Part shown: positions 6,232 to 50,498 of the stretch, piece after piece | How positions within the stretch are numbered: position 1 is the first letter of the stretch | Layout of the letters: each line of letters starts with the position of its first letter | Assembly: GCA_029263015.1 (NCBI GenBank) | Contig: JAJCYI010000210.1 | Coordinates: 1-64,000 of the forward strand | From: Saprospiraceae bacterium | GTDB taxonomy: Bacteria > Bacteroidota > Bacteroidia > Chitinophagales > Saprospiraceae | Direction of reading: 5' to 3' | Length of the DNA: 64,000 bases | Notes under the pieces: model-generated | Databases searched by the model: none | What the model saw: only the letters and a program-made list of their open reading frames with translations | What the model was told of the DNA's origin: nothing | Position numbers and translations under genes: made by a program

Positions 6232-6310
6232 GAATTCATTAGTTTTCTCAACAAAGTAAAAGGAAAGATATATAAGTTTTTTTACAAAACAAACCGCACG
6301 CCAGCTTTAA

Positions 6311-6348
6311 CGTAAAATGCCCAAGCAACTTTGCCTGGGCATTTTACG
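6311..6348. terminator. Hairpin downstream of the FadL-like gene
   Basis: A perfect 13-bp stem (6311-6323 with 6336-6348) lies 34 bases past the stop of the minus-strand gene at 6383. The outer stem is A/T-rich, giving a short U-run on the transcript. It separates this gene from the next minus-strand gene. Confidence 0.7.
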
Positions 6349-6382
6349 GTTAAGATAATTGCTTATCCTGAATGGAATCCAA

Positions 6383-7882: not shown

Positions 7883-7955
7883 TACCTTTCTAAAAATTAT
7901 TTTACCTTGCTCAAAAGATTTGATCAAAAAGAATGAACTCTTCTACCACCACCAT

Positions 7956-7991
7956 AAAAAAGTGGGTGAGCCGTTTACCAACCCACCCACT
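7956..7991 (-). terminator. Intrinsic terminator of the low-complexity protein gene
   Basis: On the minus strand, AGTGGGTG (7991-7984) pairs with CACCCACT (7968-7961) and is followed by a run of T (complement of the A-run at 7956-7961). It lies 23 bases after the stop at 8015. Confidence 0.7.
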
Positions 7992-8014
7992 CTCGTTTAT
8001 GATTCTTTTTGTTT

Positions 8015-26400: not shown

Positions 26401-29186
26401 GAACAATTGTCGGTACTGCTGCCATCGCCAATGTTCGCTGGCAATGTGCCGTTGCCACTGCCGTCCAACACCACGTCCACTATCGTTGCAGGGCAGATTG
26501 CTGTCTGCACTTCATTGTCAAACACATTGAAACTACAAGTTTCAGTATTACTATTTACAGAACCGTCAGTCGCTGTCAAGGTCACTGTTTGGACACCCAA
26601 GTCCGAACAAGTATATGACTGGGAGGGGCTTGTCTCTGCAACAGTGCAGTTGTCGGTACTGCTACCGTCACCAATATTAGCAGGCAATGTGCCATTGCCA
26701 CTGCCGTCCAATACAACATCCGCTATCGTTGCTGGGCAGATTGCAACTGGCGCTTCATTGTCAACTACATTGAATGAACACGTCGCTGTGCCAATGTTGC
26801 CAGAACCGTCCGTCGCTGTCAAAGTCACTGTCTGGACACCAAGGTCGGTGCAGGTATATGACTGGGAGGGGCTGGTTTCTGTAACAGAACAGTTGTCGGT
26901 GCTGCTGCCGTCGCCAATGTTGGCGGGCAATGTACCATTGCCGCTGCCGTCGAGCACCACATCCGCTATCGTTGCGGGGCAGATTGCAACTGGGTCTATG
27001 TTGTCAACAACGTTGAACGAACAGCTGGCCGTGTTCGTGTTGCCAGAACCGTCCGTCGCTGTCAAAGTCACTGTCTGCGCACCAAGGTCAGCACATGTAT
27101 ATGATTGGGAGGGGCTCGTCTCGGATGCAACCGAACAATTATCGGTACTGCTGCCGTCACCAATGTTTGCAGGCAATGTGCCATTGCCGCTGCCGTCAAG
27201 CACCACATCCGCTATCGTTGCGGGGCAGATTGCAACTGGGTCTATGTTGTCAACAACGTTGAACGAACAGCTGGCCGTGTTCGTGTTGCCAGAACCGTCC
27301 GTCGCTGTCAAAGTCACTGTCTGGCCGCCCAAATCCACACAAGTATATGACTGGGAGGGGCTTGTCTCGGTAACAGTGCAGTTGTCGGTACTACTGCCGT
27401 CACCAATGTTGGCGGGCAATGTGCCATTACCGCTTGCGTCAAGCTCAACATCAGTTATTGATGCTGGACAGACTGTAGCTGGGTCTATATTGTCAACAAC
27501 ATTGAAGGAACAACTGGCCGTGTTCGTGTTGCCAGAACCGTCGGTCGCTGTCAAGGTCACTGTCTGCGCACCAAGGTCGGTACAGGTATATGACTGGGAC
27601 GGGCTGGTTTCGGTAACAGAACAGTTGTCGGTACTGCCGCCGTCACCAATGTTGGCAGGCAACGTGCCATTACCGGTTGCGTCAAGCTCAACATCAGCTA
27701 TTGACGCTGGGCAGACCGCAACTGGATTTTCTGTATCATTTATTGTTATTGTAAACGAACAAGTAGTTGTCTGGCTTTTAGAATCAGTTGCAGAATAAGA
27801 CACTGTTGTTATACCTACTGGAAAAGTGTCACCATCTCCTAACATGCTTGTTTGTACCAATGCAGGGTCTGGGTTGTCGCAATCATCATCTACTGTTGGT
27901 AAAGTCCATGAAACGACTTTCCCGCAAATACCGGGATCATTACTCATGGTCATATTCGCAGGACAACCATTAATCACTGGAGGATCATCAACTTTTGCAC
28001 CTACGCCATTATTGGTGAGAATAGGTATAGACATGGGCGGGAAGCCTTGTCCTGCAACGATGCTCGTTGGGATATTCGAAAATGAGATATCCGATGCATC
28101 TGTCACATCGGTTAGCGTAGTAAAGTATATCGTAAAAATCGAATCGCCATTTGGAACGGTCTCCCCTGAACCATCGTCATCAATCCAAGCAAAGGTAATT
28201 ATGCCCATACTGGTTTGACTTAAACCAAAATCACCAATATCCAAATGTTGAAGGTTGAAGTTTTTGATACTATCATACCTTATCACCATTTCATCCCATG
28301 TAATGGAAAATGACAGTGCCGAAACATTTGAAAAATTATTTACTTCTATATCAATAGCAAGTACAGAATCTTGGCAAAACGCAGTATCGCTTACAGCAGT
28401 TACTAAAAGGTCGGCAATAACTTGATTTATAGTAACTGTAAATGAGCAAGTACCTGTATTCCCCTTTAAATCTGTAGCCATGTATGTCACGGTTGTAACA
28501 CCACTGTTTGGCATCGAATTAAAAGTACTACCGCTCACATCGTCATTTCCTGCCAAAACAGTCGCTCCTGTAGTTGAATAAGTGACTGCTGGCGTCATAC
28601 AGTTATCACTGAATGATACTGGTGCAATCCCATTTACTACTTCACTTGGATTCATGGTGTTTATCAACACATTTCCAGGGCAAGATATCACAGGGTCAAC
28701 GGTATCGTCAACATCAACCTGTCCATCAGTTGTGGTAACAGGAATGCTCATTGGTGGAAACCCAGATCCAACAACAATTGGTGTAGGTGTTCCATTAAAT
28801 TCAATGGTTGAAGAAGTTCCCATTCCACCTAAAACCGTAAAATAAACCCTGTAGATAATGGTTCCATTTGCAGCTGATTCACCTGAACCATCATTGTCGA
28901 CCCATGCAGCTGTATAAAACCCCATTCCCGTTTGGGTAGTACCAAAATCAGGACCATCTAAATGTTGTAGATTAAAAGCACCAATAGAATCAAACTGTAG
29001 TATCGTTTCATCCCAGTGCATTGAATAGGAAAAAGCCGTGATATTTGTAAAGTCTGTCACTGCAATCGGCACAGACACTGTATCACCGCAAGTTTCGAGA
29101 GTCGGCACAGAAAAATTTACTTGTGCCATTAAATTTCCAACCCATAGTGTCAATACAAAAATGAGTAGTTGTAAAACTTTGCGCAT
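20427..29186 (-). CDS. Giant HYR-repeat surface protein with type B (gliding-motility) C-terminal domain
   Basis: A 2,919-residue exported protein (signal peptide MRKVLQLLIFVLTLWVGNLM, then AQV). Two cohesin-like modules (about 22-165 and 260-400, each with a W-DE-L/I-YDSI strand and a GFPPMSIP turn) alternate with HYR domains. Nine nearly identical HYR-like units of about 80 residues follow (about 487-1214), then divergent HYR domains (VTYTATDxxGNxxxCSF type) to about 2145, then about seven Ig-like modules, a cadherin-like module (VVNDVLANDDYTI) and a CHU_C domain (from VITPNNDGINDQF to the end). Such proteins are exported by T9SS with a PorP/SprF partner and form filaments or adhesins like SprB. 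It is followed by exactly that partner. It may share a transcript with the upstream HYR gene, though 413 bases separate them. Confidence 0.9.
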   Translation of the reverse strand: MRKVLQLLIFVLTLWVGNLMAQVNFSVPTLETCGDTVSVPIAVTDFTNITAFSYSMHWDETILQFDSIGAFNLQHLDGPDFGTTQTGMGFYTAAWVDNDGSGESAANGTIIYRVYFTVLGGMGTSSTIEFNGTPTPIVVGSGFPPMSIPVTTTDGQVDVDDTVDPVISCPGNVLINTMNPSEVVNGIAPVSFSDNCMTPAVTYSTTGATVLAGNDDVSGSTFNSMPNSGVTTVTYMATDLKGNTGTCSFTVTINQVIADLLVTAVSDTAFCQDSVLAIDIEVNNFSNVSALSFSITWDEMVIRYDSIKNFNLQHLDIGDFGLSQTSMGIITFAWIDDDGSGETVPNGDSIFTIYFTTLTDVTDASDISFSNIPTSIVAGQGFPPMSIPILTNNGVGAKVDDPPVINGCPANMTMSNDPGICGKVVSWTLPTVDDDCDNPDPALVQTSMLGDGDTFPVGITTVSYSATDSKSQTTTCSFTITINDTENPVAVCPASIADVELDATGNGTLPANIGDGGSTDNCSVTETSPSQSYTCTDLGAQTVTLTATDGSGNTNTASCSFNVVDNIDPATVCPASITDVELDASGNGTLPANIGDGSSTDNCTVTETSPSQSYTCVDLGGQTVTLTATDGSGNTNTASCSFNVVDNIDPVAICPATIADVVLDGSGNGTLPANIGDGSSTDNCSVASETSPSQSYTCADLGAQTVTLTATDGSGNTNTASCSFNVVDNIDPVAICPATIADVVLDGSGNGTLPANIGDGSSTDNCSVTETSPSQSYTCTDLGVQTVTLTATDGSGNIGTATCSFNVVDNEAPVAICPATIADVVLDGSGNGTLPANIGDGSSTDNCTVAETSPSQSYTCSDLGVQTVTLTATDGSVNSNTETCSFNVFDNEVQTAICPATIVDVVLDGSGNGTLPANIGDGSSTDNCSVASETSPSQSYTCADLGVQTVTLTATDGSGNSGTATCSFNVVDNEVPVAICPASIADVVLDGSGNGTLPANIGDGSSTDNCSVTETSPSQSYTCADLGVQTVTLTATDGSGNSDTETCSFNVVDNEVPTAICPATIADVVLDGSGNGTLPANIGDGSSTDNCSVASETSPSQSYTCSDLGVQTVTLTATDGSGNIGTATCSFNVVDNEAPVAICPVTIADVVLDANGDGTLAANIGDGSSTDNCSVTETSPLHSYTCSDLGVQTVTLTATDGSGNSDTETCSFNVVDTTPPTITCPANQTVSIDANCEAIITDYTVMTTVSDNCTAIANITIVQSPIAGTVVTADTDMTMTATDEEGNASSCTFKVILDDSELPVVTCPGNQTLNADANCEATLPDYAGLVTATDNCPGLSLIQVPVIATVINTTTTVTFTATDAAGNMADCSFDVSIIDVTPPIITTCAPDDVLLADGNCEATLPNYTGLVVFSDNCDAVGDIKITQVPADGVVINSDTTVYIIIEDLSGNKDSCSFMVAFDDNTSPTITCPTNISVGTESDICTAVVTWTTIVSDNCDPDPMMTCVPPSGTVFPVGDSTVTCTVEDLSGNTNMCQFLVTVSDNQTPTLVCPSDTMFLVTIAIIDTVVNNISLVSSADNCGIDTTYYHLTGATTGEGADDASGAAFAPGTTLVTYYVEDAAGNIDSCSFNVIILQNIIIDLDCSLSITQNIDAGECAAVINTAAPGIDPIAGLDTIYYELTDATTGSGADSIPDTQVFNIGTTTATYTAISITNDTSTCSFTVTVVDNEAPSITCPGAMTVDNTADSCGIIFINDFMATATDNCPGVIVDCGFSVGDLVPVGINTITCTATDAAGNTASCSYQLTVQDTEPPVIVNCPVDINVNTDPSVCGAIVTWQEPTATDNCAVLVLESSPLVSGDLFPAETTPVTYTAVDAVGNVTECTFNVKVSDNEPPSLNPCPGNITVNNDPGLCSAQVSWPFINPADNCGVISFIVLPMPNSVFPVGATQVQAAATDAAGNVTVCSFNVTVIDSEFPTMTGVPTTIIVNADPNECGAIVNWSPILTDDNCGVDTFYCDASSGDFFVVGMHTVTCTAVDENGNGAVQDFIVIVQDDEIPDVDCPENITIYVDGSIVDDPSGFIAGIQPTACDSLALDYNPMPAVDNCGIASIIQTGGPPTGSTISAGMHTLTYLITDMNGNQVTCGFNIEIVEIPNAIADAFPINPCEGEDVLFFTDDYANATYEWVDPMGNIISNAFSFTKPALSQDMTGTYNVTITFPFNCVLTASVDVEVFANPEVIIEYNDLVCTDGSIPLVLEAIDTVNAGVVDCVWELPDGTFAFGETLTIINATSSNSGVYTVLCTTANGCVSEVSRNVIINDEPPQPDLTGDKTEACIGESIALDGEEFAGPNIDYHWTAMPMIGSGLIDINNHDNAANPSLPGTYIYKYIITQGNCVSDTAEWVVVVQEDPAFSLGVDGQVDCVDGGSNIDISAVTSTAGLVWNINVNGNCTPVQNDSTFTLNNVTADCSGLYEVTATSSIGCSTTETVNLSITDKPVTPLLETTDSVICMGGSTTIFSQNIPLGVSFEWTVNGTIDPTFPGLPIIVSPTATTTYGLQIITADGCVSDMSTVEVTVELPLPIGIIVDGDVDCVDGTTEVTLIANVSGGDTFVWDGPCGVQSGNNLPIPNIVASCSGLYSVSVTGTLGQCINIGTLQLEVTGMLSPVTAELLSSACDGGDLEFCAEPAMPGATYTWRDPAGNIFSNDRCPVTPAILNGAYTVTADIDGCTASNDTVVTIITEPIAKDDFVIGVVDAPQSFNVVVNDVLANDDYTITVVQQPSNGNVSYNGEGVFTYNPQSGFRETDIMAYEICYKDCPELCDIALVTIEVRYPPDQCIATTVITPNNDGINDQFVISCLEVDACPNNQLIIYNQWGDKVFEAAPYDNTWKGTYNGRDVPDGTYFFVFRCDNSSEPEKGFVMVYR
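25543..27729 (-). repeat. Nine tandem repeats of about 237-240 bp inside the giant adhesin
   Basis: Each unit encodes a CPATIADVVLDGSGNGTLPA block, then NIGDGSSTDNC, SPSQSYTC, LGVQTVTLTATDGSGN and CSFNVVDN. Unit differences are few: CSVTETSPS alternates with CSVASETSPS (units 3, 6 and 8 carry the extra residue), and the unit ends vary between GNTNTAS, GNIGTAT, GNSDTET and GNSGTAT. Units 4 and 8 share the ending GNIGTAT plus DNEAP, so block duplication or gene conversion is likely. The copy number should be prone to change by recombination. Confidence 0.92.
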
Positions 29187-29599: not shown

Positions 29600-32500
29600 T
29601 TAATCTAGGAGAACCATTTTCCTAACGGCAATCCCTTCTGCTGTTTCCAAAGTATAAAAGAATACTCCTGATGTTGGTAAATCATCAGACGCTACCCTGA
29701 CTTCTTGATAACCAGCAGTGTAATTTCCTTCATAAACCTTAACAATTTTTCCTGAAACATCTATAATTGTAAGCGTTGCTGAAGTAGCATTCTGTAAATA
29801 GAAAGGTATAATCGTTGCCGAGCCAAATGGATTTGGTCGGTTTTGGTACAATGCAAAGGCATCACTTTCAGCTTCATTTATACCAGTAACATTATTAAAG
29901 GTCAAGCCGAGATCAAACTTATCCAGGTTACTGTTCCAAGCATTTGCAACAACTGGTGCAGAAACAATATTCAACAAACTGCTAAGCTTGGCCCCTCCAT
30001 CAATTGCATCAAAAACCAGTGTAAACAATACCTCATTATCTTGCAAAGTAGTTGGCGTATCGTTGTACCAAATAGAAGTAATCTGGCCATCATCAATTCC
30101 ATTCAATCCAAAATGCTGCTCAGACATTCCTGGCAAAGCTCCTAACTCAATATCCTTAAGTTTCAAAACATCAGGATTGAATCCGAAAGTATTTTGGAAG
30201 GCCGACATTTCGACAAAATCTTTTGCTTTAATATCAACTCGGTATTCCTGCCCTGCTGCTACCGTTTGGTCATCTATGCTGAATTGGAGCAAACCATTTC
30301 CACCATCTGAGACATCATCATCGTCGCCAACAATAGATGCTGGGTCAGCATCCAATGTCAGGTCTCCAATTTTCATCCCTATAAAATCTCCTGTCATTGG
30401 GCCAGCCAAACCTGTATATACGATCGACTGAGGAAATGGTGGTGAAAATGGATTCAATGGATCAGGGAACACGTATGAGGCATCGACAAAACGCCATGAA
30501 GTACTATTGGAAAGTCCAATACATGGAATCCCTGCCAATACAATCAGGTGCAGTTCGAGCCTGTCAAGTACATTGATAGATCCATCATTGTTGATATCCG
30601 CTGCTATCCGGCGATATGGTGTCGGAATCTGGTTCATTGGATCACCAAGGATGTGAAGTTGAAGTACCAGTACATCAAGTACATTGATACCATTGCAATC
30701 ATTAATATCCTTGGTTGGTGTAATCGTTTCATTACTGCCCAACGGTACTGAGAAAGCGTAGGTGGCTGTGCCTGGAGGAGTGCCTGTTGTTTGGTTATCT
30801 CCAACGGAACCTGTCATGGCTACGTTTGCCAATTCTACAGGATCACCATTCTCAGTTTCAAGACTTCCATCCAAAAGGACATTCATCGGCGTAGCAACTA
30901 TTGATACCGAACCATTTAATGTTGTAACCGGTACCGTGCTTAGATCACAGCGAACAAACATTTCAGCAATTGGAGTGCCATCTATTGTCACTGTTGTACT
31001 GGTACCAATACCACCCACCAACAGTACGTCAACATTGAAAATGGTTGTGCCGTCAGGTATAGTAACTGGTGCGCCACTTACCCAACTGAATGCAATATCA
31101 TTCGTGAATGGACTATTCGGGAAGAAGTCACTAACCGACATTCCCGGAAGACCAAATCCACTTACGCCAGTCACAGTCGCTACTGCTGGATCATCTACAT
31201 GAATCGAGAATGAAACAGCACATATATCATCAAAGCCAGTCACTGTTACAGGAATGGAAACCGTTGTTCCACTACCTCCTGTTACATCATCGGCACTAAC
31301 TGTACCTCGCTCGATTACTGTTACTGGAGTAGTACACATGCTGGTATTTCCTGAGCCATCGGTAACGGTAAGTTCAACATTTACAATCCCTACGTCATTT
31401 ATATCAAACGTGTTTGGAGAAATACTCAAAGTAACAGCTCCACAATTATCGGTACTTCCGTTGTCAATATCACCTGGAACTAATGAGCCGGTTCCGTTAC
31501 CATCCAAAATCAAAGTAGTAGCTGGCAAACAAACTGCTTGAGGTGCTTCAAGGTCACGAATGCTCAATATAAAACTGATCGGTGTACTATTTCCACAAGG
31601 ATCGGTCACCGTACCTGTAATGGGATAGTCGCCCGGCACATAAACGCCGTTTATATCGTCTGTGCCATTTCCAAAACCATAAGAAGCCAAAGCCGAGTTA
31701 GTAATGGCAAGGAATGCATCTGCCGCACAATCAGTTATAAAATCCAACAAATTCACATTCACCGTAGCAAAACACTCATCTGGATCGGTACCAATAATCA
31801 ATGGATTTGGAATAGAAACCAGTGGGTTGTCATCATCCAACACAGTAATTACTCGCGAATCCATGGTGGAGTTACCACAATCATCTGTTGCTGTCCACGT
31901 CCTTGTAATCGAATAATTATAATGGAGACAATTACTTGGATCACCATTTTGAGTATCCATTTCTGAAAACCCAATAGTCGGACTTAAGTCACAGTTATCT
32001 GTAGATGTTGGCGTTGCCTGAATCGGAATTGAATTGCAATCAACTGTAACATCTGCAGGGACTCCAAATAAGGACGGATTGCTGTTGTCTTCAACTGTTA
32101 TCACTTGCAAACAAGTTGCTGTGCCGCCAGCAGTAGTCGCATCCCAAGTTCTATTTATTACCCTGCAATCCCCTAACCCACTGACTGTTACATCTGTATA
32201 TGTTGTTGTAACAGGGCCACAGGCAGTTGTTGCCGTAGCTGAACCTCCTGAAGTGGCTGGATTATTTTCATCAAAATTCTGGCACAGTACCGTAATGTCC
32301 AAAGGACATACAATAGCTGGTGTGGAAGCATTGGTAATTATAACTTCAGTCGTACAAGTGTTCGAATTTCCAGCAGCATCCGTAACTGTTAAAGTCACGG
32401 TGTGTGGGTTTGGAGTTGTGAAACAATCAAACAGTGCAGGAGATACATTCAAACTGGCAACAAAACAGTTGTCATTACTTCCATTGTTTATTGTTGAAGG

Positions 32501-35500
32501 AGTAATCGTCGCAATGCCGTTGCTGTTCAACGTCAAAGGAATTGGTCCTGGTTGACAAATGGCAGTTGGTGTCTCGTTGTCCAGAATGGTTACTGTTACA
32601 GTATGAGTAGATGAATTGCCACAAGGATCCGTTGCCGTAAATTCGACTGTATGCACACCAACATTGAAATTGCCACTTGCAACTGGCCCGTTGTGGATAA
32701 CCATGTTGCCATCAATTTCATACGTAATAGTCAAATACTGAAAATCAGCACAATCTGTTATAGCATTGGTTACATCAATCGTCGCAAAACCTAAACACTG
32801 GCCTGGCGTATTGCCAACCGTAACAATACTGGTATAGTTAAATACAGGGTCTTGTGTATCTTGTATGATCGCTGTCCGAGATGCTGTAGTTGAATTACTA
32901 CAATTGTCCGTAGCCGTCCAAGTCCTCGTAACAGTGTAATTGTAATAACCGCACTGAGAAGGTAAAAACAACGGTGTTGGAGGGTTTGTACTATTATTGA
33001 AACGGCTATCATTAAATGTACTACTTAAACTAACATTTGTATCACAATTATCAGATGCCGTAACCGTAGGTGCTGTCGGTGGATTACACTGGAATGGATT
33101 CGGATAGTTTGGCACACCAGACAAGATCGGGTTAGTAGTATCGGTAATGGTTATGGTCTGAGCACAAAGGCTTGTATTACCTTCAGTATCCGTTGCTGCC
33201 CAAGTCCGGGTAAAGGTCAAACAATCTGCACCATTCGGAGTAGGGTTTTCATTAAATATCGAAGTTAGCACTGAGCCATCGCAATTGTCAACGGCAGTTG
33301 CAAAGCCCGTGATTGTGGCTGGTGGAGAATTTCCTGCCAACTCACATGCTATAGATGCTGTCGGTGGACAGGAAATAACAGGTGGCAGGTTATCCTGTAA
33401 TTCCAAAGATGTCAAGCAGAACCCCTCATTGCCGAAATTGTCAGTTGCCTTGAAAAATATAGGGATTGGAGGCCCGGTTGCAAGATCCCCGCAATCAAAT
33501 AAAATTGACGCCGAGTAAGGTCCATTTATGCCCGCTGTTGCAATCATAAAATCAAGTGGTCCAGGATCGCAATTATCAATACTCCCATCGTCAAAAGCGA
33601 TAGCATTTACAGTTGCTTCTCCATTTCCATTCAAAGCCACAATCACATCATCACAAGCAGCCAAAGGAGGTTGCTTGTCTTCGACATGCAATTTCACCAA
33701 ACAAGTATCTGATACCTTGCCGTGATGGTCAACTGCACGGACCCATGCATTTACGTAAGCATCCAAAGAGTCACAGAATAGGGAATCACAATTTTGCCAA
33801 GTGACACTATCGAGGGTTATCTGATAATCTAAAGGATCACACATAACAGATGCATCAACAAAGAAGGCTTTGCCATCTGAATTCGTGAAACTTGATGACC
33901 ATTTTGGCTGGCCGAAATCACCCGTGAAAGTCTCACTGAAATTCTTGATCCATACCTCAGCGTTCCCACCTAAGTTGTCAGTTGTACGAGCTACAAAACA
34001 GAATTCCTGCCCAGCATTAAGCGTGACTGTTGCTGTTCCTGATTGCATCAAAGGCGTAATATTGGTCGTCAATTGTTGGAATGCGCCACCGCCAATCGTA
34101 AAACCAAACGGATCCCAGGTCGGGCTACTATTATTCGACTGATAATTCCAATCGAATGAGAAGGTAATGGCATTTGAAACAGTGACACAAAATTCATTGT
34201 CCCCTGAATTTCCAGAGCCGTTATCCCCACTTGAAATATAAATACCCCCATTGATCAACGAGTCAGGGAAGATTTTGCCGAGACCATCTGCATCGAGGCA
34301 CACAGCAATTGTATCGACACAGGTTAGCATTGGACGAAGTGTATCCATTACAGTAATAGTACCTGTACATTGATCCGTGTTTCCACTTGGATCAGTAACT
34401 GTCAAAGTATAAACTCTTGGCTGATTTCCTCCAACATTTGGATTCGTGTCAATGTCATCACAAGTAAACATTGTTTGGCTCAAGTCACCTATTGACGCAC
34501 AGCAATTATCATCAGCACCATATCCGATTAAGGTGTTGTCCCATCTTTGGTAATCGATTTGGAGCGACCAGCTATCTATGAAACCCATAGTGGCGGGTGC
34601 CGCACTTGTGGTGTCGGTGACGGTCAATGTCCAAACCCCATTTACGTCTTCCCCATTGAATGCAGAAAGAGGATTAATGGGTTGAAATGTGCCCGATATT
34701 GCAGGTGAAGGAGTATCACAACTGTTTTCAAAAGCCTCTGCCGGGCTGCTAGCCAAATCATCAAACGAAGCAGATATGTCGGCTTCTTCACATCCAAGCA
34801 TGCTCACAGGAACACCTGGCTGGTCGCCCAGAGTCACAACTGTTCCAGTTGGGCTGGTAAGTGTAATGTTCAAATCACCGATCCTGTCATGCACAATGAG
34901 CATGTTGAGCACATTGACGTCCTTGATTACACCTGTACCATAAAAAGTGATTTCTGATATTGTTGTGTCCACACCAGTAGATATAGTACTGTCAGCACTA
35001 TTCGTTTTTGTACTGTCAATCTGCAAAAAGTCTAACATAAACATGCCAGATTGATCCAAATAAACTGTTTCATTCGAGCAAGCTGAACTTGCATCAGGCG
35101 AAATATTGTCTATTACCTTCACCACTGCAGGACAAGTATTCATGTTTCCTGCATCGTCAGTTACCCTTAGTATTACATTGTTATCACCTGTTTCGGGACA
35201 GAAAAAAGTAGTAGTAGGTCCGTAGGTGTTGCCTCCGTCTTTTGATATCTCAAACGTGTCTATTCCACAGGCATCAAAACTACCTGCATCTATTTCCATG
35301 GCCCCAACGGTCACGTAACCATCAGCATTCAAATTACGGGTAATATTTTGGCAGAACATCGCTGGCGGTGAATTGTCCACAACGTCAATCAGTGAATTAC
35401 ATGTAGCGGAGTTGCCATTGGCATCCGTTACGGTCAAAACAACTGTTTCGGGTATTCCTCCGATATCCCCACAATCAAATGTGTTAGGAGAAAGACTTAA

Positions 35501-36880
35501 TATGAGATCAGCTTGAAGAGTACAATTATCATTACTCCCGTTGTCTATTTGAGAAGGCACCAATGTAGCTGTGCCAGTAGGAGGGATTGATACTGTAATC
35601 AATACAGCATTACAAATTGCTGTTGGTGCAATATTGTCCACCACATTTAAAGTAACCGTATGTGTTCCTTCGTTCTGGCACGGATCGGTCGCTGAGAATA
35701 ATACTGAATATATTCCTGGGAGATAGTTGCCACTAGCATCCAATCCATTTCCTTGATCCACTATCATACCTCCAATATCAAAAACCGTATAAGTAGTAGT
35801 CAGAGAACCGTTCGCACAGTTATCATCTGCTGTCACCACAAGTATTACAGGAGTAAGGCAGCTAGCACTGGCTGGAATGTTGACCAGTATTGGTGCTCCT
35901 GGGAAGGTCGGCACCGTATTGTCGCTCACATTAATTACCTGCGAGCGGGAAGTAATATTTCCACAATTATCAACTGCGTCCCAAATCCTTATAAATGTGA
36001 AATCATAATGTCCACAAACAGACGGATCTGGATCTTGACCATCGATGGTGCTAAAATTAATAGATGGTGTAGTACACCCATCCGTTGCTGTTTGCATGGG
36101 TGGCATTGCCGGTGGAAATGAACTACACTCCACGTTTAAAGGGGAAGGAATAGGCGCAGAAGTGAAAACAGGATTATTGCCATCCTGAACAGTTATCACC
36201 TGGGTGCAACTACCAACATTCATGTTATTATCCTCCGCTGTCCACGTTCTTTCTACCGTGAAACAATTTGCACCTGTTGCACTAATGGTTACATCAGATG
36301 GTGAGGAAATCATTGGAAATAAATCGCAGTTATCTACTGCCGTTGGTGGGCCCGTAGATGGAAGCGAACAAGATACGGTGACGTCAGCTGGACAGGTCAA
36401 AACCGGCGGCAAATTGTCTTCAACTGTCACATTGGTCGAGCAGAAGTTCATGTTCCCTGCTAAGTCAGTAACCGTTAAAGTAATCGCCACTATACCTATA
36501 TCAGCGCAAGTTACCAGGTTCGGCGAAACAGCCAAAGTAACTGCTCCACAGCCATCAAAACTCCCGTTATCAATGTCATCGGGGTCAATACCCGCTTGAC
36601 CTGAGCCATCCAATGCAATTGTATAAGGCCCCACACATACTGCCGTGGGAGGGCTTACATCAGGATTGCACTGCGCAAAAAGAGATGGAGAAGAAAAACA
36701 GCAAAGTAATAATGCTGCCACTATACCGATTTTTAAAGTCTTCGGTATAACTTGGAATTTATTGAAAATCCGTTCAAGGGATTCAAATAAGCAGATAATC
36801 TCCTGCTTAAAAGTGTCAAAATGTACCATAGTAGTAGGCTTGGTTTGTGAATAAATATAATACCCATAATGGCCAAGCAT
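29600..36880 (-). CDS. Giant HYR-repeat surface protein with P-domain, dockerin and type A T9SS sorting domain
   Basis: A 2,426-residue protein with an unusually long N-terminal extension before the hydrophobic signal (KIGIVAALLLCCFSSPSLFA, near residues 51-70). The Met at codon 18 (36829) is an alternative start. Many HYR domains follow. A proprotein-convertase P-type domain lies near 630-776 (DLNITLTSPTGTVVTL, GVWTLTVTDTT, WSLQIDY). Further on come a cohesin-like module (about 1857-1997), a dockerin-like pair of calcium loops (DINDCNGINVLDVL near 2057 and DINNDGSINVLDRLEL near 2094), a second cohesin-like module (about 2190-2310) and a type A sorting domain at the end (ALYQNRPNPFGSATIIPFYL to VRKMVLLD). 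It is exported by T9SS and anchored or released at the surface. A structural or adhesive role is inferred from the repeats; no catalytic domain was seen. Confidence 0.88.
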   Translation of the reverse strand: MLGHYGYYIYSQTKPTTMVHFDTFKQEIICLFESLERIFNKFQVIPKTLKIGIVAALLLCCFSSPSLFAQCNPDVSPPTAVCVGPYTIALDGSGQAGIDPDDIDNGSFDGCGAVTLAVSPNLVTCADIGIVAITLTVTDLAGNMNFCSTNVTVEDNLPPVLTCPADVTVSCSLPSTGPPTAVDNCDLFPMISSPSDVTISATGANCFTVERTWTAEDNNMNVGSCTQVITVQDGNNPVFTSAPIPSPLNVECSSFPPAMPPMQTATDGCTTPSINFSTIDGQDPDPSVCGHYDFTFIRIWDAVDNCGNITSRSQVINVSDNTVPTFPGAPILVNIPASASCLTPVILVVTADDNCANGSLTTTYTVFDIGGMIVDQGNGLDASGNYLPGIYSVLFSATDPCQNEGTHTVTLNVVDNIAPTAICNAVLITVSIPPTGTATLVPSQIDNGSNDNCTLQADLILSLSPNTFDCGDIGGIPETVVLTVTDANGNSATCNSLIDVVDNSPPAMFCQNITRNLNADGYVTVGAMEIDAGSFDACGIDTFEISKDGGNTYGPTTTFFCPETGDNNVILRVTDDAGNMNTCPAVVKVIDNISPDASSACSNETVYLDQSGMFMLDFLQIDSTKTNSADSTISTGVDTTISEITFYGTGVIKDVNVLNMLIVHDRIGDLNITLTSPTGTVVTLGDQPGVPVSMLGCEEADISASFDDLASSPAEAFENSCDTPSPAISGTFQPINPLSAFNGEDVNGVWTLTVTDTTSAAPATMGFIDSWSLQIDYQRWDNTLIGYGADDNCCASIGDLSQTMFTCDDIDTNPNVGGNQPRVYTLTVTDPSGNTDQCTGTITVMDTLRPMLTCVDTIAVCLDADGLGKIFPDSLINGGIYISSGDNGSGNSGDNEFCVTVSNAITFSFDWNYQSNNSSPTWDPFGFTIGGGAFQQLTTNITPLMQSGTATVTLNAGQEFCFVARTTDNLGGNAEVWIKNFSETFTGDFGQPKWSSSFTNSDGKAFFVDASVMCDPLDYQITLDSVTWQNCDSLFCDSLDAYVNAWVRAVDHHGKVSDTCLVKLHVEDKQPPLAACDDVIVALNGNGEATVNAIAFDDGSIDNCDPGPLDFMIATAGINGPYSASILFDCGDLATGPPIPIFFKATDNFGNEGFCLTSLELQDNLPPVISCPPTASIACELAGNSPPATITGFATAVDNCDGSVLTSIFNENPTPNGADCLTFTRTWAATDTEGNTSLCAQTITITDTTNPILSGVPNYPNPFQCNPPTAPTVTASDNCDTNVSLSSTFNDSRFNNSTNPPTPLFLPSQCGYYNYTVTRTWTATDNCSNSTTASRTAIIQDTQDPVFNYTSIVTVGNTPGQCLGFATIDVTNAITDCADFQYLTITYEIDGNMVIHNGPVASGNFNVGVHTVEFTATDPCGNSSTHTVTVTILDNETPTAICQPGPIPLTLNSNGIATITPSTINNGSNDNCFVASLNVSPALFDCFTTPNPHTVTLTVTDAAGNSNTCTTEVIITNASTPAIVCPLDITVLCQNFDENNPATSGGSATATTACGPVTTTYTDVTVSGLGDCRVINRTWDATTAGGTATCLQVITVEDNSNPSLFGVPADVTVDCNSIPIQATPTSTDNCDLSPTIGFSEMDTQNGDPSNCLHYNYSITRTWTATDDCGNSTMDSRVITVLDDDNPLVSIPNPLIIGTDPDECFATVNVNLLDFITDCAADAFLAITNSALASYGFGNGTDDINGVYVPGDYPITGTVTDPCGNSTPISFILSIRDLEAPQAVCLPATTLILDGNGTGSLVPGDIDNGSTDNCGAVTLSISPNTFDINDVGIVNVELTVTDGSGNTSMCTTPVTVIERGTVSADDVTGGSGTTVSIPVTVTGFDDICAVSFSIHVDDPAVATVTGVSGFGLPGMSVSDFFPNSPFTNDIAFSWVSGAPVTIPDGTTIFNVDVLLVGGIGTSTTVTIDGTPIAEMFVRCDLSTVPVTTLNGSVSIVATPMNVLLDGSLETENGDPVELANVAMTGSVGDNQTTGTPPGTATYAFSVPLGSNETITPTKDINDCNGINVLDVLVLQLHILGDPMNQIPTPYRRIAADINNDGSINVLDRLELHLIVLAGIPCIGLSNSTSWRFVDASYVFPDPLNPFSPPFPQSIVYTGLAGPMTGDFIGMKIGDLTLDADPASIVGDDDDVSDGGNGLLQFSIDDQTVAAGQEYRVDIKAKDFVEMSAFQNTFGFNPDVLKLKDIELGALPGMSEQHFGLNGIDDGQITSIWYNDTPTTLQDNEVLFTLVFDAIDGGAKLSSLLNIVSAPVVANAWNSNLDKFDLGLTFNNVTGINEAESDAFALYQNRPNPFGSATIIPFYLQNATSATLTIIDVSGKIVKVYEGNYTAGYQEVRVASDDLPTSGVFFYTLETAEGIAVRKMVLLD

Positions 36881-44560: not shown

Positions 44561-44713
44561 AACATGGGCTTTCCAAAGAATGAGAAGCTGCAATCCAATA
44601 TTTGCTACAGGCTCATCTTCCTATTTGATTTGGAGTTGTCGGTGTGCGACCCAAAGAAAAACAATTTGATGAATCTTTGCCTCGGCTTTTTAGAAAAAAG
44701 GGGTACAGCTTGC

Positions 44714-44775: not shown

Positions 44776-45390
44776 ATGAAAAAACTATACGTTTCGAATA
44801 AAGATGAAAGCGTGCGCATGTTCAGATATGGATGGATGGAAATTTTTTCAAAAGTTCACTTCAGTGTGCCTGCTATTCTATACCTACCTGTGATAGGGTA
44901 TTTTTTATACGCCAGTATTATTGACCCAACTATAAGTGGTTTGAAGGTTTTGGGACTTTTTGCTGGCGGTGTATTATCATGGACGTTGACAGAGTATTTC
45001 CTTCACCGATTTGTTTTCCATTACCATCCAAGTAAGGATTTTGGGAAACGCTTGCTTTTTATCATGCACGGCGTTCACCACGATTACCCAAACGACTCCA
45101 AACGATTGGTGATGCCCCCATCGGTGAGCATTCCATTGGCATTCATTTTCTATTTTGGGTACAAAGCATTATTAGGTGCTTCCATGGCAGCACCTTTTTT
45201 TGCAGGTTTTGTGCTAGGATACCTTTGTTATGATATGTTGCACTATGCCGTACACCATGCAAACATTAAAAGCAAATGGTTCATGGACATTAAGGCGCAC
45301 CACCTGAAACACCATTTTAAAGATCCGGACAATGGATTTGGTGTCAGTTCGACCTTGTGGGATAAAATAATAGGTACTGAATATAAGTAG
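44776..45390 (+). CDS. Fatty acid hydroxylase superfamily protein (FA2H-like)
   Basis: A 204-residue membrane di-iron enzyme of the sterol desaturase/fatty acid 2-hydroxylase superfamily. All histidine clusters are present: HRFVFHYH (77-84), HGVHHDYP (98-105), HYAVHH (156-161) and HHLKHH (175-180). Four hydrophobic segments flank them. Relatives (FA2H, Scs7) hydroxylate the alpha carbon of the acyl chain of ceramides. Placement at the head of a cluster with a serine palmitoyltransferase supports 2-hydroxylation of sphingolipid acyl chains. No cytochrome b5 domain is fused, so the electron donor is separate. Confidence 0.88.
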   Translation: MKKLYVSNKDESVRMFRYGWMEIFSKVHFSVPAILYLPVIGYFLYASIIDPTISGLKVLGLFAGGVLSWTLTEYFLHRFVFHYHPSKDFGKRLLFIMHGVHHDYPNDSKRLVMPPSVSIPLAFIFYFGYKALLGASMAAPFFAGFVLGYLCYDMLHYAVHHANIKSKWFMDIKAHHLKHHFKDPDNGFGVSSTLWDKIIGTEYK

Positions 45391-45391
45391 T

Positions 45392-45430
45392 GAGGAGTGT
45401 TGAGTATTGAGTGTTGAGTTTTTACTCCTC
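45392..45430. repeat. Small inverted repeat with internal GTTGAGT repeats
   Basis: GAGGAGT (45392-45398) and ACTCCTC (45424-45430) could pair as a 7-bp stem. The loop carries GTTGAGTATTGAGTGTTGAG-type direct repeats. It lies just after the hydroxylase stop and may be a weak transcript-attenuating structure. Confidence 0.4.
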
Positions 45431-45468
45431 ATTTCATAGCTCAATGTTTTTCATCCACCACTATATAA

Positions 45469-46389
45469 ATGGCTTTTGAGCGGTTTTCAAAAAAAGAAAG
45501 TTTCATTGCACTTGGGTTGGCGCTTCTCTACTTGTTGTGGGTAACTTATGTTGTGGGATACAGAGACGACCATTTAATTACTATAACTCTTTGTTTGGGG
45601 TTGTTTTTTGCTGGGGAAACATCGAGGAAAGTGATAATGGCGTTGTTCTTTTTTATCCTTTACTGGGTCATTTACGACTCTTTGCGCATTTACCCCAACT
45701 ATGAATTTAACCTCGTCCACATACAGGAGCCTTATGATATCGAAAAAGCGCTTTTTGGTTTTGAATACCTTGGACAATTAGTTACGCCCAACGAGTTCTT
45801 TGAACAAAATACCTTCCCGATAGCCGATGTAGCCTCAGGTTTCTTTTATCTGAGCTGGGTTCCGGTACCGATTGCTTTTGCCGTTTGGTTGTTTTTTAGG
45901 GACAAGCGGATGCTGCTCGATTTTTCATTTGCATTTTTGCTGACCAACCTGTTCGGCTTTGTGCTTTATTATGCTTATCCCGCAGCTCCTCCCTGGTATG
46001 TGGAAATGCACGGTTTTGTTGAAAATTTTAGCATTCCGGGCAATGAAGCTGGATTGGCAAATTTTGACAGGATCATGGGCATCCAGCTTTTTCATGGGAT
46101 GTATGCAAAGAACGCCAATGTTTTTGCAGCCATCCCATCATTGCATTCTGCCTATCCAATCCTTCCCTTATATTTTGCTTTAAAAAGAAGGATGAAGTTG
46201 GCAGCCTGGGTGTTTTTCATAATTTGCCTCGGAATATGGGGGACGGCTGTCTATTCCCGGCATCATTATATCATTGATGTAATTTTGGGCGTTTTGTGCG
46301 CTTTGTCCACAATTTTTGTGCTGGAACGTTTGGTGTTGAGGACGAGGGTGGACGGGTGGCTGGATAGGTACGCGAAGTTGATAAATTAA
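45469..46389 (+). CDS. AUR1-like PAP2 phosphotransferase (inositol/ethanolamine phosphoryl-ceramide synthase-like)
   Basis: A 306-residue integral membrane protein with six or more predicted helices. Lipid phosphatase-like motifs are AAIPSLHSAYP (about 222-232, catalytic His) and YSRHHYIIDVILG (about 262-274, catalytic His and Asp), the pattern of AUR1/inositol phosphorylceramide synthases. Such enzymes transfer a phospho-headgroup from a phospholipid to the 1-hydroxyl of ceramide. Together with the hydroxylase and serine palmitoyltransferase, it is the likely headgroup transferase of the cluster. Which headgroup it uses cannot be read from the sequence, and plain PAP2 phosphatase activity is the alternative. 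ATG at 45469; it follows the hydroxylase by 78 bases. Confidence 0.8.
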   Translation: MAFERFSKKESFIALGLALLYLLWVTYVVGYRDDHLITITLCLGLFFAGETSRKVIMALFFFILYWVIYDSLRIYPNYEFNLVHIQEPYDIEKALFGFEYLGQLVTPNEFFEQNTFPIADVASGFFYLSWVPVPIAFAVWLFFRDKRMLLDFSFAFLLTNLFGFVLYYAYPAAPPWYVEMHGFVENFSIPGNEAGLANFDRIMGIQLFHGMYAKNANVFAAIPSLHSAYPILPLYFALKRRMKLAAWVFFIICLGIWGTAVYSRHHYIIDVILGVLCALSTIFVLERLVLRTRVDGWLDRYAKLIN

Positions 46390-46410
46390 TGATCCTAAAT
46401 ATATTATACC

Positions 46411-46617
46411 ATGACAGATAAATTAATTCTGACACAGATTGAACTTTTGCCGAACAACTTAAAAAAAGAAGTTCTTGATTTTATCGGTTACTTGTTGATG
46501 AAGTACAATAAAGAAAACAAGAAAAAGTCTGCTCCAAAATTTGGAAGTGCAAAAGGTAAATATGTGCTTTCACCTGATTTTGATGAACCTTTAGAAGACT
46601 TCAAAGAATACATGTAA
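46411..46617 (+). CDS. DUF2281-type VapB-like antitoxin
   Basis: A 68-residue protein with the arrangement of DUF2281 antitoxins: an N-terminal helix (ILTQIELLPNNLKKEVLDFI) for DNA binding or dimerisation, then a basic linker and the toxin-binding tail PKFGSAKGKYVLSPDFDEPL with DFKEYM at the end. Its stop codon is immediately followed by the ATG of the PIN toxin gene (46618), the normal vapBC layout. The antitoxin frame is intact although the partner toxin is broken. Confidence 0.82.
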   Translation: MTDKLILTQIELLPNNLKKEVLDFIGYLLMKYNKENKKKSAPKFGSAKGKYVLSPDFDEPLEDFKEYM

Positions 46618-48183
<1,566 letters not shown>

Positions 48184-48212
48184 AAGAATAAGGAAACCAC
48201 AAATTAATGGAT

Positions 48213-48249
48213 TAGGCGTCGGACACCTTCGAAGGGTGTCCGACGCCTA
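48213..48249. terminator. Perfect 15-bp palindrome between spt and the GNAT gene
   Basis: TAGGCGTCGGACACC and GGTGTCCGACGCCTA pair perfectly (48213-48227 with 48235-48249) around a short TTCGAAG-type loop. It sits 30 bases after the spt stop and 36 bases before the next start. Without a T-run it is not a standard terminator. It could be an interspersed palindrome or a processing site within the operon. Confidence 0.55.
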
Positions 48250-48285
48250 TATAAGTAGGTGAGTTATCTTTTGAAATCAAGTAAT

Positions 48286-49416
48286 ATGAATACCAGCATT
48301 ATTGAAGTGAAGTCCAACCGAGACAAAAAGCGCTTCATTGACTTTCCACACGAATTATATAAAGACGACCCGAACTACGTTCCCGAAATTTATATCGGCC
48401 AAAAAGAATTGTTGAGCGAAAAGAAAAACCCTTTTTTCCGCCACTCCAAAGTACAGCTTTACCTTGCCTATCAGAATGAGGAAATTGTTGGGCGCATTGC
48501 CGCTATCCGCAACAATGAATACAACAATTTCGCTAATGCCAATGTCGGGTTTTTCGGCCTGTTTGATGTGATCGAAAATTATGAAGTTGCAAAAGTACTT
48601 TTGGACACAGCAAACCAATGGGTAAAAAATGAAAAATTGGATGCGGTCCTCGGACCTACCAATTTCTCCACCAATGATACCGCCGGATTACTGGTGGAGG
48701 GCTTTGATCGACCTCCAGTAGTCATGATGACTTATAATAAACCATACTATGTCACATTCCTTGAGCAGTACGGGTTTGTTAGCCAAATGGACTTGCTGGC
48801 CTACCATGTCACGGAGCAAACAGTCAATACAAAATCCGTCCGCATCGCTAATATGCTGGGCGAGCGCCTAGAGAAAAAAGGCATCACCGTTCGCAGTGTG
48901 AACATGAAGAACTTCAAAACTGAGGTAAACACCATCTGTGATATTTATCAAAACGCCTGGGACAAAAATTGGGGTTTCGTGCCGCCCACCAAGGCCGAGT
49001 TCAACCATTTGGCTGAAGGCCTTAAAATGGTTGTCGATCCCGATTTTGCGCTCATCGCTGAAGACAAAGGAAAAGCCGTTGCGTTTGCCCTTGCCGTGCC
49101 CGACATTAACATCATTGCCCGAACCATAAAAAAAGGCAGGCTCCTACCGACTGGAATTTTCAAACTATTGTTCCAAAAAAAGAAAATCAAACGCTTGCGC
49201 ATTATCCTGCTTGGCGTTTTAGAAGGTTACCGTAAAATGGGGATCGAGGGCATTTTTTACGCCCGCATCATTTCCAGGGGCATGGAAAAAGGATACAATG
49301 AAGCGGAAGCATCTTGGATTTTGGACAATAATGAAATGATGAAAAAAGGGGTGGAAGGCGCTAACATGGTACCGTACAAACGATATCGAATTTATGAAAA
49401 GAAAATAGAGAATTAA
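48286..49416 (+). CDS. GNAT-superfamily acyltransferase, candidate ceramide synthase
   Basis: A GTG at 48259 is in frame, but the ATG at 48286 (MNTSIIEVKSNRDKKRFIDF) gives a typical start, for 376 residues. The N-terminal part (about 20-105) has the GNAT-like pattern VQLYLAYQNEEIVGRIAAIR, followed by LGPTNFSTNDTAGLLVEGFD. A second acyltransferase-like half shows FALIAEDKGKAVAFALAVPD and a C-terminal acceptor region (GVLEGYRKMGIEGIFYARI, then EASWILDNNEMMKKG). Proteins of this type lie next to serine palmitoyltransferase in many Bacteroidota. A GNAT-superfamily protein is the ceramide synthase in Caulobacter, so N-acylation of sphinganine or its ketone is inferred for this one. Confidence 0.75.
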   Translation: MNTSIIEVKSNRDKKRFIDFPHELYKDDPNYVPEIYIGQKELLSEKKNPFFRHSKVQLYLAYQNEEIVGRIAAIRNNEYNNFANANVGFFGLFDVIENYEVAKVLLDTANQWVKNEKLDAVLGPTNFSTNDTAGLLVEGFDRPPVVMMTYNKPYYVTFLEQYGFVSQMDLLAYHVTEQTVNTKSVRIANMLGERLEKKGITVRSVNMKNFKTEVNTICDIYQNAWDKNWGFVPPTKAEFNHLAEGLKMVVDPDFALIAEDKGKAVAFALAVPDINIIARTIKKGRLLPTGIFKLLFQKKKIKRLRIILLGVLEGYRKMGIEGIFYARIISRGMEKGYNEAEASWILDNNEMMKKGVEGANMVPYKRYRIYEKKIEN

Positions 49417-49428
49417 GTAGTGTGAAAT

Positions 49429-49491
49429 GGTTTATTGGTGTAACGGTGTAATGGTTTAACGGCGTCCACTACACCGTTACACCAATAAACC
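49429..49491. repeat. 22-bp perfect inverted repeat before the reductase gene
   Basis: The arms 49429-49450 and 49470-49491 are exact reverse complements of 22 bases (GGTTTATTGGTGTAACGGTG...), with a 19-base loop that repeats part of the arm sequence (ATGGTTTAACGG). It begins 12 bases past the GNAT stop and ends 14 bases before the reductase ATG, so its RNA hairpin would end almost at the ribosome binding region. It could terminate, attenuate or block translation. Confidence 0.7.
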
Positions 49492-49505
49492 AATAAACCG
49501 TTTAA

Positions 49506-50498
49506 ATGAAAAAAATACTCATCACCGGCGCATCGGGCTTTGTTGGCAGCCACCTTGTCGAAGAGGCTTTGGAGCGGAACTTGAATGTATATGCCGGAGT
49601 AAGAAAAACGAGTAGCAGACAATATTTAAAAGGTGACCGTATCCATTTATTAGAAATGGATTTTTCCAATAAAAAAGAATTAACACAAAAATTAAAAGAT
49701 CATAAATTCGATTTTATAGTACACAATGCAGGCGTTGTCTCGGTGCCAAAATTGAAAGATTATTACCGGATAAATTATGAATTTTCAAAAACTTTTATTG
49801 AGGCTATATATGCTTCTGAAAACAGCCTAGATAAATTCACCTATATCAGCAGCCTGGCGTCCTATGGCCCAGCAAACAGTGAAAACCTTTCCGATTTTTT
49901 AAAAGAAGAAGACAATCGAAACCCCATCAATACTTATGGCAAGTCAAAATTAAAAACAGAAGAATATTTAGCACAGCAAAGTGATTTTCCATATATTATT
50001 ATTCGCCCAGGTGGAGTCTATGGGCCAAGGGAAAAAGAAATACTCACTTTTTTTAAATTAATTAATCGAAATATAGAAGGTTACATCGGTAGCCGAGATC
50101 AACACCTTGCTTTTATTTATGTAAAAGACTTGGCGAGAGCCATTGTTGACGCCACTATTTCGCAGCATACTCAAAAAGCTTATTTTATTTCTGACGGAAA
50201 ACATTATACACAATGGGATCTCGGAAAATATGCCAAACGTATTTTAAATAAAAAAACCTTCCGTTTTCATGTGCCCGTTAATTTAGTCAGGAGCATAGCA
50301 TGGCTTTTGGAACAGCCTGCAAAAATAACCGGAAATTACCCAGCATTAAATTTGGAAAAAGTCAGTATTTTGGAAAGCATGAATTGGAAATGCGACATCA
50401 CACCACTGAAAAATGATTTAGGTTTCGAGCCAGAGTATGATTTGGAAAAAGGATTGGAAGACACACTCAATTGGTATAAGGAAAATAAGTGGTTGTAG
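49506..50498 (+). CDS. NAD(P)-dependent epimerase/dehydratase-family reductase, candidate ceramide reductase
   Basis: A 330-residue extended short-chain dehydrogenase. The Rossmann motif is ITGASGFVGSHLVEEA (about 6-21). The catalytic Ser/Thr region is FTYISSLASYGPAN, and the active-site YxxxK is TYGKSKLKTE, followed by PYIIIRPGGVYGPRE. Next to serine palmitoyltransferase and the GNAT acyltransferase, it is the likely counterpart of CerR, which reduces the keto group to give (dihydro)ceramide. Sugar epimerase activity is the alternative on fold alone. It is the last gene of the cluster. Its DNA is noticeably richer in AT than its neighbours, which may indicate separate acquisition. Confidence 0.75.
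   Translation: MKKILITGASGFVGSHLVEEALERNLNVYAGVRKTSSRQYLKGDRIHLLEMDFSNKKELTQKLKDHKFDFIVHNAGVVSVPKLKDYYRINYEFSKTFIEAIYASENSLDKFTYISSLASYGPANSENLSDFLKEEDNRNPINTYGKSKLKTEEYLAQQSDFPYIIIRPGGVYGPREKEILTFFKLINRNIEGYIGSRDQHLAFIYVKDLARAIVDATISQHTQKAYFISDGKHYTQWDLGKYAKRILNKKTFRFHVPVNLVRSIAWLLEQPAKITGNYPALNLEKVSILESMNWKCDITPLKNDLGFEPEYDLEKGLEDTLNWYKENKWL

Follow-up and report, generated by a model that had tools for sequence, protein, structure and literature searches.

Can a bacterium carry, side by side, the genes for a hydroxylated ceramide with a polar head? The question is raised by a 64,000-nucleotide stretch of a Saprospiraceae bacterium (GenBank assembly GCA_029263015.1, contig JAJCYI010000210.1, positions 1 to 64,000; hereafter the window), in which a sequence-only reading had named a fatty acid 2-hydroxylase, an AUR1-like headgroup transferase, a serine palmitoyltransferase (SPT), a GNAT acyltransferase and an NAD-dependent reductase, all in one orientation, and had proposed that together they make 2-hydroxylated, headgroup-bearing ceramides. 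The five open reading frames (ORFs) are present, all on the + strand and with outer limits of exactly 44776-50498, and family models agree with the names given to them. The proposed joint role is supported as well, by those models, by conserved catalytic residues, by synteny across genera and in one other phylum, and by inositol-lipid genes elsewhere in the genome. We think it probable that these genes form one half, the sphingolipid-making one, of a pathway to inositol phosphoceramide; as judged from the genes, its product is likely a 2-hydroxylated inositol phosphoceramide.

Five genes and a proposed pathway

The first gene (44776..45390) encodes a 204-aa Scs7/FA2H-like fatty acid hydroxylase (FAH) with a PF04116 match (FA_hydroxylase, 69.6 bits; cut-off 31), a match to yeast Scs7 and conserved histidines. 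It is followed by an Aur1-like inositol phosphoceramide synthase (IPCS; 45469..46389; PAP2_3, 80.9 bits, cut-off 27), identified by family NF052609, by fungal Aur1 (PDB 9ivc) and by invariant residues, and then by SPT (46972..48183; Aminotran_1_2, 189.4 bits, cut-off 19.7), identified by NF047600 and PDB 8guh. A GNAT-type N-acyltransferase resembling bacterial ceramide synthase (48286..49416), of the kind that we call type A, was recognized by homology to YghO, by its predicted fold and by synteny; its Pfam match is weak (Acetyltransf_1, 23.9 bits, cut-off 20.7), with no single stretch passing alone. The last gene (49506..50498) encodes an extended, epimerase-type SDR (PF01370, Epimerase, 118.3 bits, cut-off 20.9), by homology a CerR-like 3-ketosphinganine/ketoceramide reductase. 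The listed ORFs run 44776-45390, 45469-46389, 46873-48183, 48259-49416 and 49506-50498; for SPT and GNAT homology suggests starts at ATG 46972 and ATG 48286, rather than at the listed TTG (46873) and GTG (48259).

We infer from these identities a series of reactions in which the GNAT would N-acylate the base and the SDR would reduce the 3-keto group, in either order, yielding dihydroceramide. Hydroxylation of its N-acyl chain, with C2 the most likely position, would fall to the Scs7-like di-metal enzyme, which would draw on O2 and an electron donor, and the Aur1-like enzyme would then move phosphoinositol from phosphatidylinositol (PI) onto the (2-hydroxy)ceramide. PI itself could come from inositol-phosphate synthase (MIPS) and a PgpA-type phosphatase, both encoded on contig C224, together with a BT_1523-like PI-phosphate synthase (PIPS) on contig C18 (numbers prefixed C denote contigs of the same genome, the window's own being C210; G denotes genomes of relatives and L individual loci). 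The locus had also been taken for a full pathway in one place: the ceramide and headgroup genes are indeed together, whereas completeness fails, with the supply genes on C224 and C18.

Conservation of the cluster

IPCS, SPT, GNAT and SDR are co-oriented and in the same order in 9 of 13 other genomes of the genus (including G002), and the cluster is therefore not a chance arrangement. In the rest of the 13, contig ends interrupt the set in two (G006 and G010), it is split in one (G007), and the GNAT contigs of the last (G011) lay outside the comparison.

A scan of contigs with an IPCS alignment gave at least 590 stretches and at least 535 confirmed loci. We refer to the best 80 of these as the named loci; they were picked by likeness to IPCS and include some of the G genomes and one duplicate pair (L200, L201). 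Twenty-five of the best 80 hold SPT, GNAT, SDR, MIPS, PIPS, hydroxylase and IPCS all together, 23 of them on one strand, while the other two (L168 and L205) also have a distant, weak DUF5686-type match on the other strand; the titles of the 25 include Pedobacter, Mucilaginibacter, Niastella, Chryseosolibacter and Cyclobacteriaceae. The window thus presents as one fragment of a widespread larger cluster. Across the best 80, PIPS occurs in 65, MIPS in 51, SPT in 50, SDR in 49 (three of them weak: L177, L163, L144), PgpA in 47, GtrA in 42, hydroxylase in 38, GNAT of type A in 37, GNAT of a second type, B, in 11 and a DES1-like gene in 2, and SPT, GNAT and SDR are consecutive in 42 of the 50 with SPT. 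One named locus, L198, belongs to a record titled as a Desulfobacterales metagenome-assembled genome and holds MIPS, PIPS and IPCS, which suggests transfer outside Bacteroidota or a binning error.

Candidate ceramide synthase and reductase

The joint role would not hold if the GNAT and SDR belonged to unrelated pathways. No curated family claimed either of them: in a scan of NCBIfam the GNAT has no match, and the SDR is matched by 46 models, all of them well short of their cut-offs (the best, HpnA, with 100 of 368). Homology and synteny lead instead to ceramide-type gene sets. An AlphaFold2 (AF2) model of the GNAT (mean pLDDT 89.3, pTM 0.87) has GNAT enzymes, several described as tandem, as its top 14 PDB matches (TMq 0.51-0.62). 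In Rubrobacter radiotolerans, a member of another phylum (Actinomycetota), SPT, GNAT and an NAD(P)-dependent oxidoreductase occur in the same order with 45%, 40% and 27% identity (SDR, E=7e-39).

The plasmid search with the window GNAT (44 records), which had pointed to the Rubrobacter set, also led to one plasmid from E. coli whose YghO (L241) aligns over its full length (35% over 377 aa, E=1.6e-72) and stands with an aminotransferase, an acyl carrier protein, an epimerase/dehydratase, an acyl-AMP ligase, LptF and LptG, and one from Sphingomonas with an SPT-like gene, LptF, LptG and a GNAT 34% identical to the window's. A tblastn match to the GNAT was also found in Roseomonas (35%). By our comparison the E. 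coli set would correspond to Caulobacter spt, acpR, cerR, aasR and cerS, as these are given in PMC11324152, and from its neighbour genes we infer that YghO is CerS. A point against the reading is that the SDR shares only 23% identity (E=8e-23) with the epimerase encoded in the E. coli region. Inspection by eye revealed no obvious signal peptide in the window SDR; Caulobacter CerR is reported to be periplasmic. The order of N-acylation and reduction is described as disputed in Caulobacter (PMC11087976), and the reduction in Bacteroides is attributed to a different SDR, BT_0972 (PMC9278070).

Headgroup and inositol supply

Between the phosphoinositol and phosphoethanolamine heads that the sequence-only reading had offered, the evidence favours phosphoinositol. 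The sole NCBIfam match of IPCS is NF052609, the phosphoinositol dihydroceramide synthase family of BT_1522 type (333.7 bits). IPCS also matches fungal Aur1 (9ivc, E=9e-19), and its H226, H265/H266 and D270 (motifs PSLH and HHY-x2-D), which we take to be the His-His-Asp catalytic residues, are invariant in 7 of 7 sequences. Genes for inositol supply are present in the same genome: MIPS on C224 (PF07994, 338 bits) adjoins a PgpA-family gene (Pfam 157 bits, cut-off 28; 94.5 bits to the PgpA equivalog, under its 226), with GtrA-family and lipid-kinase genes close by, and PIPS on C18 is flanked by genes for DUF5686 and DUF4833 proteins. In G015, of another genus in the same family, a single locus reads PIPS-IPCS-SPT-GNAT-SDR-MIPS-PgpA-GtrA-DAGK. 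Co-occurrence was scored in 60 relatives, including the window's own genome, at thresholds of 160, 240, 350 and 700 bits that were set after the tables had been viewed: 15 genomes have both IPCS and PIPS, 4 have just one of the two and 41 have neither.

Several results weigh against a phosphoinositol head. IPCS misses the NF052609 equivalog cut-off of 480 bits, PIPS falls just under that of NF052561 (338-340 bits; cut-off 350), and the window's genome spreads the set over three contigs (C210, C224, C18), so that the single-locus linkage of the BT_1522-1526 type is missing. The co-occurrence of IPCS and PIPS thins out beyond the genus (46 genomes: both in 2, one alone in 3, neither in 41; p=0.017); G037 and G047 have IPCS homologues but neither PIPS nor MIPS, and G005 and G009 (95% and 98% complete) have no MIPS. 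The NF052609 cut-off was calibrated with nine IPCS proteins: only one from an uncultured Bacteroides passes (528), and the Pedobacter and Niastella proteins that lie within full inositol clusters also miss it (308 and 346).

The low equivalog score, the IPCS homologues of G037 and G047 and the placing of the inositol genes on other contigs are what would be expected if the cluster made sphingolipids, but its PAP2/Aur1-like enzyme transferred phosphoethanolamine or phosphoglycerol, with inositol lipids made independently. We regard this as unlikely, though deserving to be kept in mind: in G015, as in many named genera, IPCS is operon-linked to MIPS and PIPS, Aur1, which it matches, is itself an inositol phosphoceramide synthase, and BT_1522, the type protein of its best-matching family, is reported to make phosphoinositol dihydroceramide, its deletion sparing the phosphoethanolamine form (PMC9246714).

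Also encoded in the genome, on C138 and C184, are four larger proteins (L102, L103, L104, L105) that contain a CDP-alcohol transferase domain; L102 and L103 score 71 and 103 against the inositol-phosphate cytidylyltransferase/DIPP synthase model (cut-off 580), and L104 is 808 aa long.

Substrate of the hydroxylase

Residues 20-201 of FAH align with yeast Scs7 (4zr1; phmmer E=3e-31), which is its only match among PDB chains bar one at chance level, and 11 of its histidines align with those of Scs7 and are invariant in 46 of 46 orthologues (proteins passing a filter of 150 bits and 190 aa). Scs7 carries a cytochrome b5 domain, and the domain is fused in eukaryotic members; unlike Scs7, the 204-aa window protein is clustered with IPCS, and a Pfam scan gave only PF04116 for it, with no cytochrome b5 domain found.

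The family PF04116 is broad, and the enzyme might act on a sterol, a carotenoid or a free fatty acid, its place beside IPCS being incidental. Within the genus the distribution lends this some weight: FAH adjoins IPCS only in the window and in 2 of the 13 other genomes (G008, G010), 9 of the 13 have no hydroxylase match and 1 more has a weak match only, and in some other relatives the hydroxylase sits on contigs apart from IPCS. We nevertheless hold it to be improbable, given that FAH lies directly upstream of IPCS in all 38 named loci that have it, with overlapping ends in 23, that its PDB matches are Scs7 chains, and that the myxobacterial homologues are 2-hydroxylases tied to sphingolipid formation by the title of Ring 2009 (via PMC10002949). 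We therefore keep to hydroxylation of the N-acyl chain as the likelier role.

Serine palmitoyltransferase and sulfonolipids

SPT scores 672 bits against NF047600 (SerpalmtaseCFB, the equivalog for SPT of the CFB group), above the cut-off of 640, and its best PDB matches, 8guh and 3a2b, reach 512 bits, where the cysteate acyltransferase 28eh reaches 250; on these grounds we rejected it as a sulfonolipid enzyme. A homologue of cysteate C-fatty acyltransferase is a different gene, on C72 (L106 7988-9244; 627 bits to 28eh, 226 to SPT), so the sphingolipid and cysteate pathways have separate first enzymes, and judging from this gene the same organism probably makes sulfonolipids too. That the locus itself makes sulfonolipids of the capnine type and not sphingolipids, as the C72 gene and the renown of Bacteroidota for such lipids might suggest, is very improbable in view of these scores, of the separate cysteate gene and of G033, whose cysteate-type gene has its own adjoining GNAT from another clade.

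Oddly for a Gram-positive, Priestia megaterium has plasmids (NZ_CP137804.1, CP109762.1) with an SPT-like gene, at 49% identity to the SPT of the window.

Apparent replacement of the GNAT

Within the genus, SPT is 74-91% identical to that of the window, while the GNAT adjoining it is either type A, as in the window, or type B, which is only 26-31% identical to type A. In a quick tree of 69 of the 87 GNATs and 5 outside ones, type A forms one clade (30 rows) and type B another (24 rows), which also takes in a second, unlinked GNAT of the genomes; both clades have 99 SH-aLRT support. A third clade (8 rows) contains the GNAT that neighbours the cysteate-type gene of G033. The Roseomonas row of this tree is a wrongly picked ORF (end branch 7.55; no match to the window GNAT) and plays no part in the argument. 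From the sequences, this looks like one type replacing the other in place.

The hydroxylase tracks the type of GNAT in the raw counts, occurring in 31 of 38 type-A loci and in 0 of 11 type-B loci (Fisher 1e-6; the window and the 80 named loci, with 30 that lack a GNAT left out and 2 excluded for an IPCS less than 900 bp from an edge). The association fails phylogenetic correction, a point against its being a real link: the IPCS or SPT tree yields 2 independent contrasts when restricted to branches with good support, and 4 and 3 over all branches, too few for any significance. The hydroxylase needs oxygen, and many Bacteroidales are anaerobic. With so few contrasts and so obvious a confounder, we keep the association as a lead only.

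Another CerS-like GNAT of the window's genome, on C9 (L032 8561-9679), groups with type B and has no SPT nearby; it has relatives in at least 8 other members of the genus and is a candidate N-acyltransferase for sulfonolipids.

Envelope proteins and desaturases

Two envelope families accompany the pathway genes. Among the best 80 loci, DUF5686 occurs in 51 (once weakly, L148, and once on the other strand, L188) and DUF4833 in 52, fused to PIPS in 18 of them by blast, with the fusion in L172 confirmed by Pfam; in the window's genome their genes flank PIPS on C18 (L216 4308-6887 and 7771-8322). The AF2 model of the L172 DUF5686 protein (5492-8047; mean pLDDT 79.9, pTM 0.69) most resembles, among PDB structures, the barrels of BamA, Sam50 and TamA (top 50 matches at E 1e-8 to 7e-7), with TM-scores by target of up to 0.65 and an rmsd of 7 to 15 A, and the model is thus suggestive of an Omp85-like barrel. 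The scanned DUF5686 proteins have the same kind of carboxypeptidase-regulatory domain as BT_1527, which Heaver et al. place near both of their clusters without assigning it a function (PMC9246714); neither DUF name turned up in the parts of the literature that our search covered. Both are candidate families for moving or inserting the lipid.

In some relatives a desaturase joins the set. It lies between PIPS and the hydroxylase in L137 (7626-8657) and L138 (7836), the former with the Pfam signature of sphingolipid delta-4-desaturases (38.8 bits, cut-off 23). The signature is confirmed in L137, L220 and L217, and similar desaturases occur in L138, L221, L225 and L227. Four type-B members of the genus (G002, G003, G005, G012) have a DES1-like desaturase beside DUF4833, and C54 of the window's own genome encodes a more distant homologue (L217 6586-7530; 38% identity, 63 bits to the delta-4 signature). 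Of 199 genomes sampled within the family, 32 have a homologue, against 0 of 14 controls; a sequence comparison with PDB chains gave no match for the DES1-like protein. Such genes raise the possibility of delta-4-unsaturated bacterial ceramides in these relatives.

We put forward tentatively, as a broader idea that may well prove wrong, that many free-living Bacteroidota have a complete, yeast-like complex-sphingolipid pathway in one locus, with its own outer-membrane module and a modular slot for the ceramide synthase. SPT, GNAT, SDR and the Scs7-like hydroxylase (in some relatives also a DES1-like delta-4 desaturase) would build a tailored ceramide, to which MIPS, PIPS, PgpA and IPCS would add phosphoinositol; delivery of the finished lipid to the outer membrane might then be the task of DUF5686, with its predicted Omp85-like barrel, and of DUF4833, which in some cases is fused to PIPS. 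GNATs from distant clades would take each other's place at the same position and may govern the choice of acyl chains.

Gene spacing and surroundings

With SPT and GNAT starting at their ATG codons, the intergenic gaps measure 78, 582, 102 and 89 bp. The long gap between IPCS and SPT (46411-46971) holds a DUF2281 antitoxin-like ORF (46411..46617, + strand; PF10047, 72 bits), then, as seen by eye, a broken PIN/VapC-like partner; this stretch is a foreign cassette inserted into the operon and contributes no pathway gene. A repeat scan found a perfect 15-nt inverted repeat between SPT and GNAT (48213..48249) and another, with 27-nt arms that are 96% complementary, between GNAT and SDR (49428..49492); with up to 3 mismatches allowed, the arms of neither recur elsewhere in the window. 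The motif TAnnTTTG has no match in the five gaps scanned. The nearest genes on both sides, a metallo-beta-lactamase-fold gene ending at 44593 and a decarboxylase-like gene beginning at 50591, are on the opposite strand, so that the five-gene unit ends at the limits given above. Elsewhere in the window, two very long ORFs occupy the - strand (20427-29186, 2919 aa; 29600-36880, 2426 aa).

Comparison with known systems

Yeast makes inositol phosphoceramide with a hydroxylated acyl chain by way of Lcb1/2, Lag1/Lac1, Tsc10, Scs7 and Aur1. Its N-acyltransferase and reductase are unlike the GNAT and epimerase-type SDR of the window, yet the overall chemistry proposed here is the same. Bacterial genes for what is most likely a yeast-like membrane lipid are now open to testing one by one, and the clusters name a testable gene for each step, the N-acylation and hydroxylation included, in culturable genera.

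The claim that this locus would define a full bacterial complex-sphingolipid pathway has to give way to its precedents: the BT_1522-1526 operon of Bacteroides (PMC9246714, PMC8791184), the ceramide genes of Caulobacter and the FA2H homologues of myxobacteria. Inositol phosphoceramide synthesis is established in Bacteroides by the same two reports, and ceramide phosphoinositol is described from Sphingobacterium (Naka 2003, as cited in PMC9246714). The legend to Fig. 1 of Heaver et al. 2022 gives the Bacteroidetes sphingolipid reactions beyond SPT as uncharacterised at that time (PMC9246714); the ketosphinganine reductase BT_0972 has since been shown, and for ceramide synthase Lee et al. cite Stankeviciute et al. 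(PMC9278070). A literature search of titles, abstract openings and passages, with subscription journals mostly outside it, found no description of an SPT-GNAT-SDR-hydroxylase-IPCS cluster. The joined cluster with its hydroxylase, the replacement of the GNAT in place and DUF5686 and DUF4833 as regular members, none of them found in print in that search, appear to be new, as do the DES1-like desaturases of some relatives.

Like the operon of Bacteroides thetaiotaomicron, the larger cluster unites an Aur1-like synthase, a BT_1523-type PIPS, a PgpA-like phosphatase, a GtrA protein and MIPS (PMC9246714, PMC8791184), with a carboxypeptidase-regulatory-domain protein, there BT_1527, nearby. In Bacteroides, however, SPT (BT_0870) and the reductase BT_0972, an SDR that is not clustered with SPT, lie elsewhere (PMC9278070), whereas here SPT, GNAT and SDR are joined to IPCS and the hydroxylase; the accessible passages on Bacteroides mention neither a GNAT nor a hydroxylase. 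With myxobacterial FA2H homologues (Ring 2009, via PMC10002949) and yeast Scs7, the window shares a membrane di-metal hydroxylase with the same set of histidines. With the Caulobacter and proteobacterial set (spt, cerR, cerS, acpR, aasR; PMC11324152, PMC11087976) it shares SPT, a GNAT-type ceramide synthase and an epimerase-type reductase, but its five-gene unit lacks genes for an acyl carrier protein, for an acyl-ACP synthetase and for LptF/LptG, and where the Caulobacter head is phosphoglycerate, the one favoured here is phosphoinositol.

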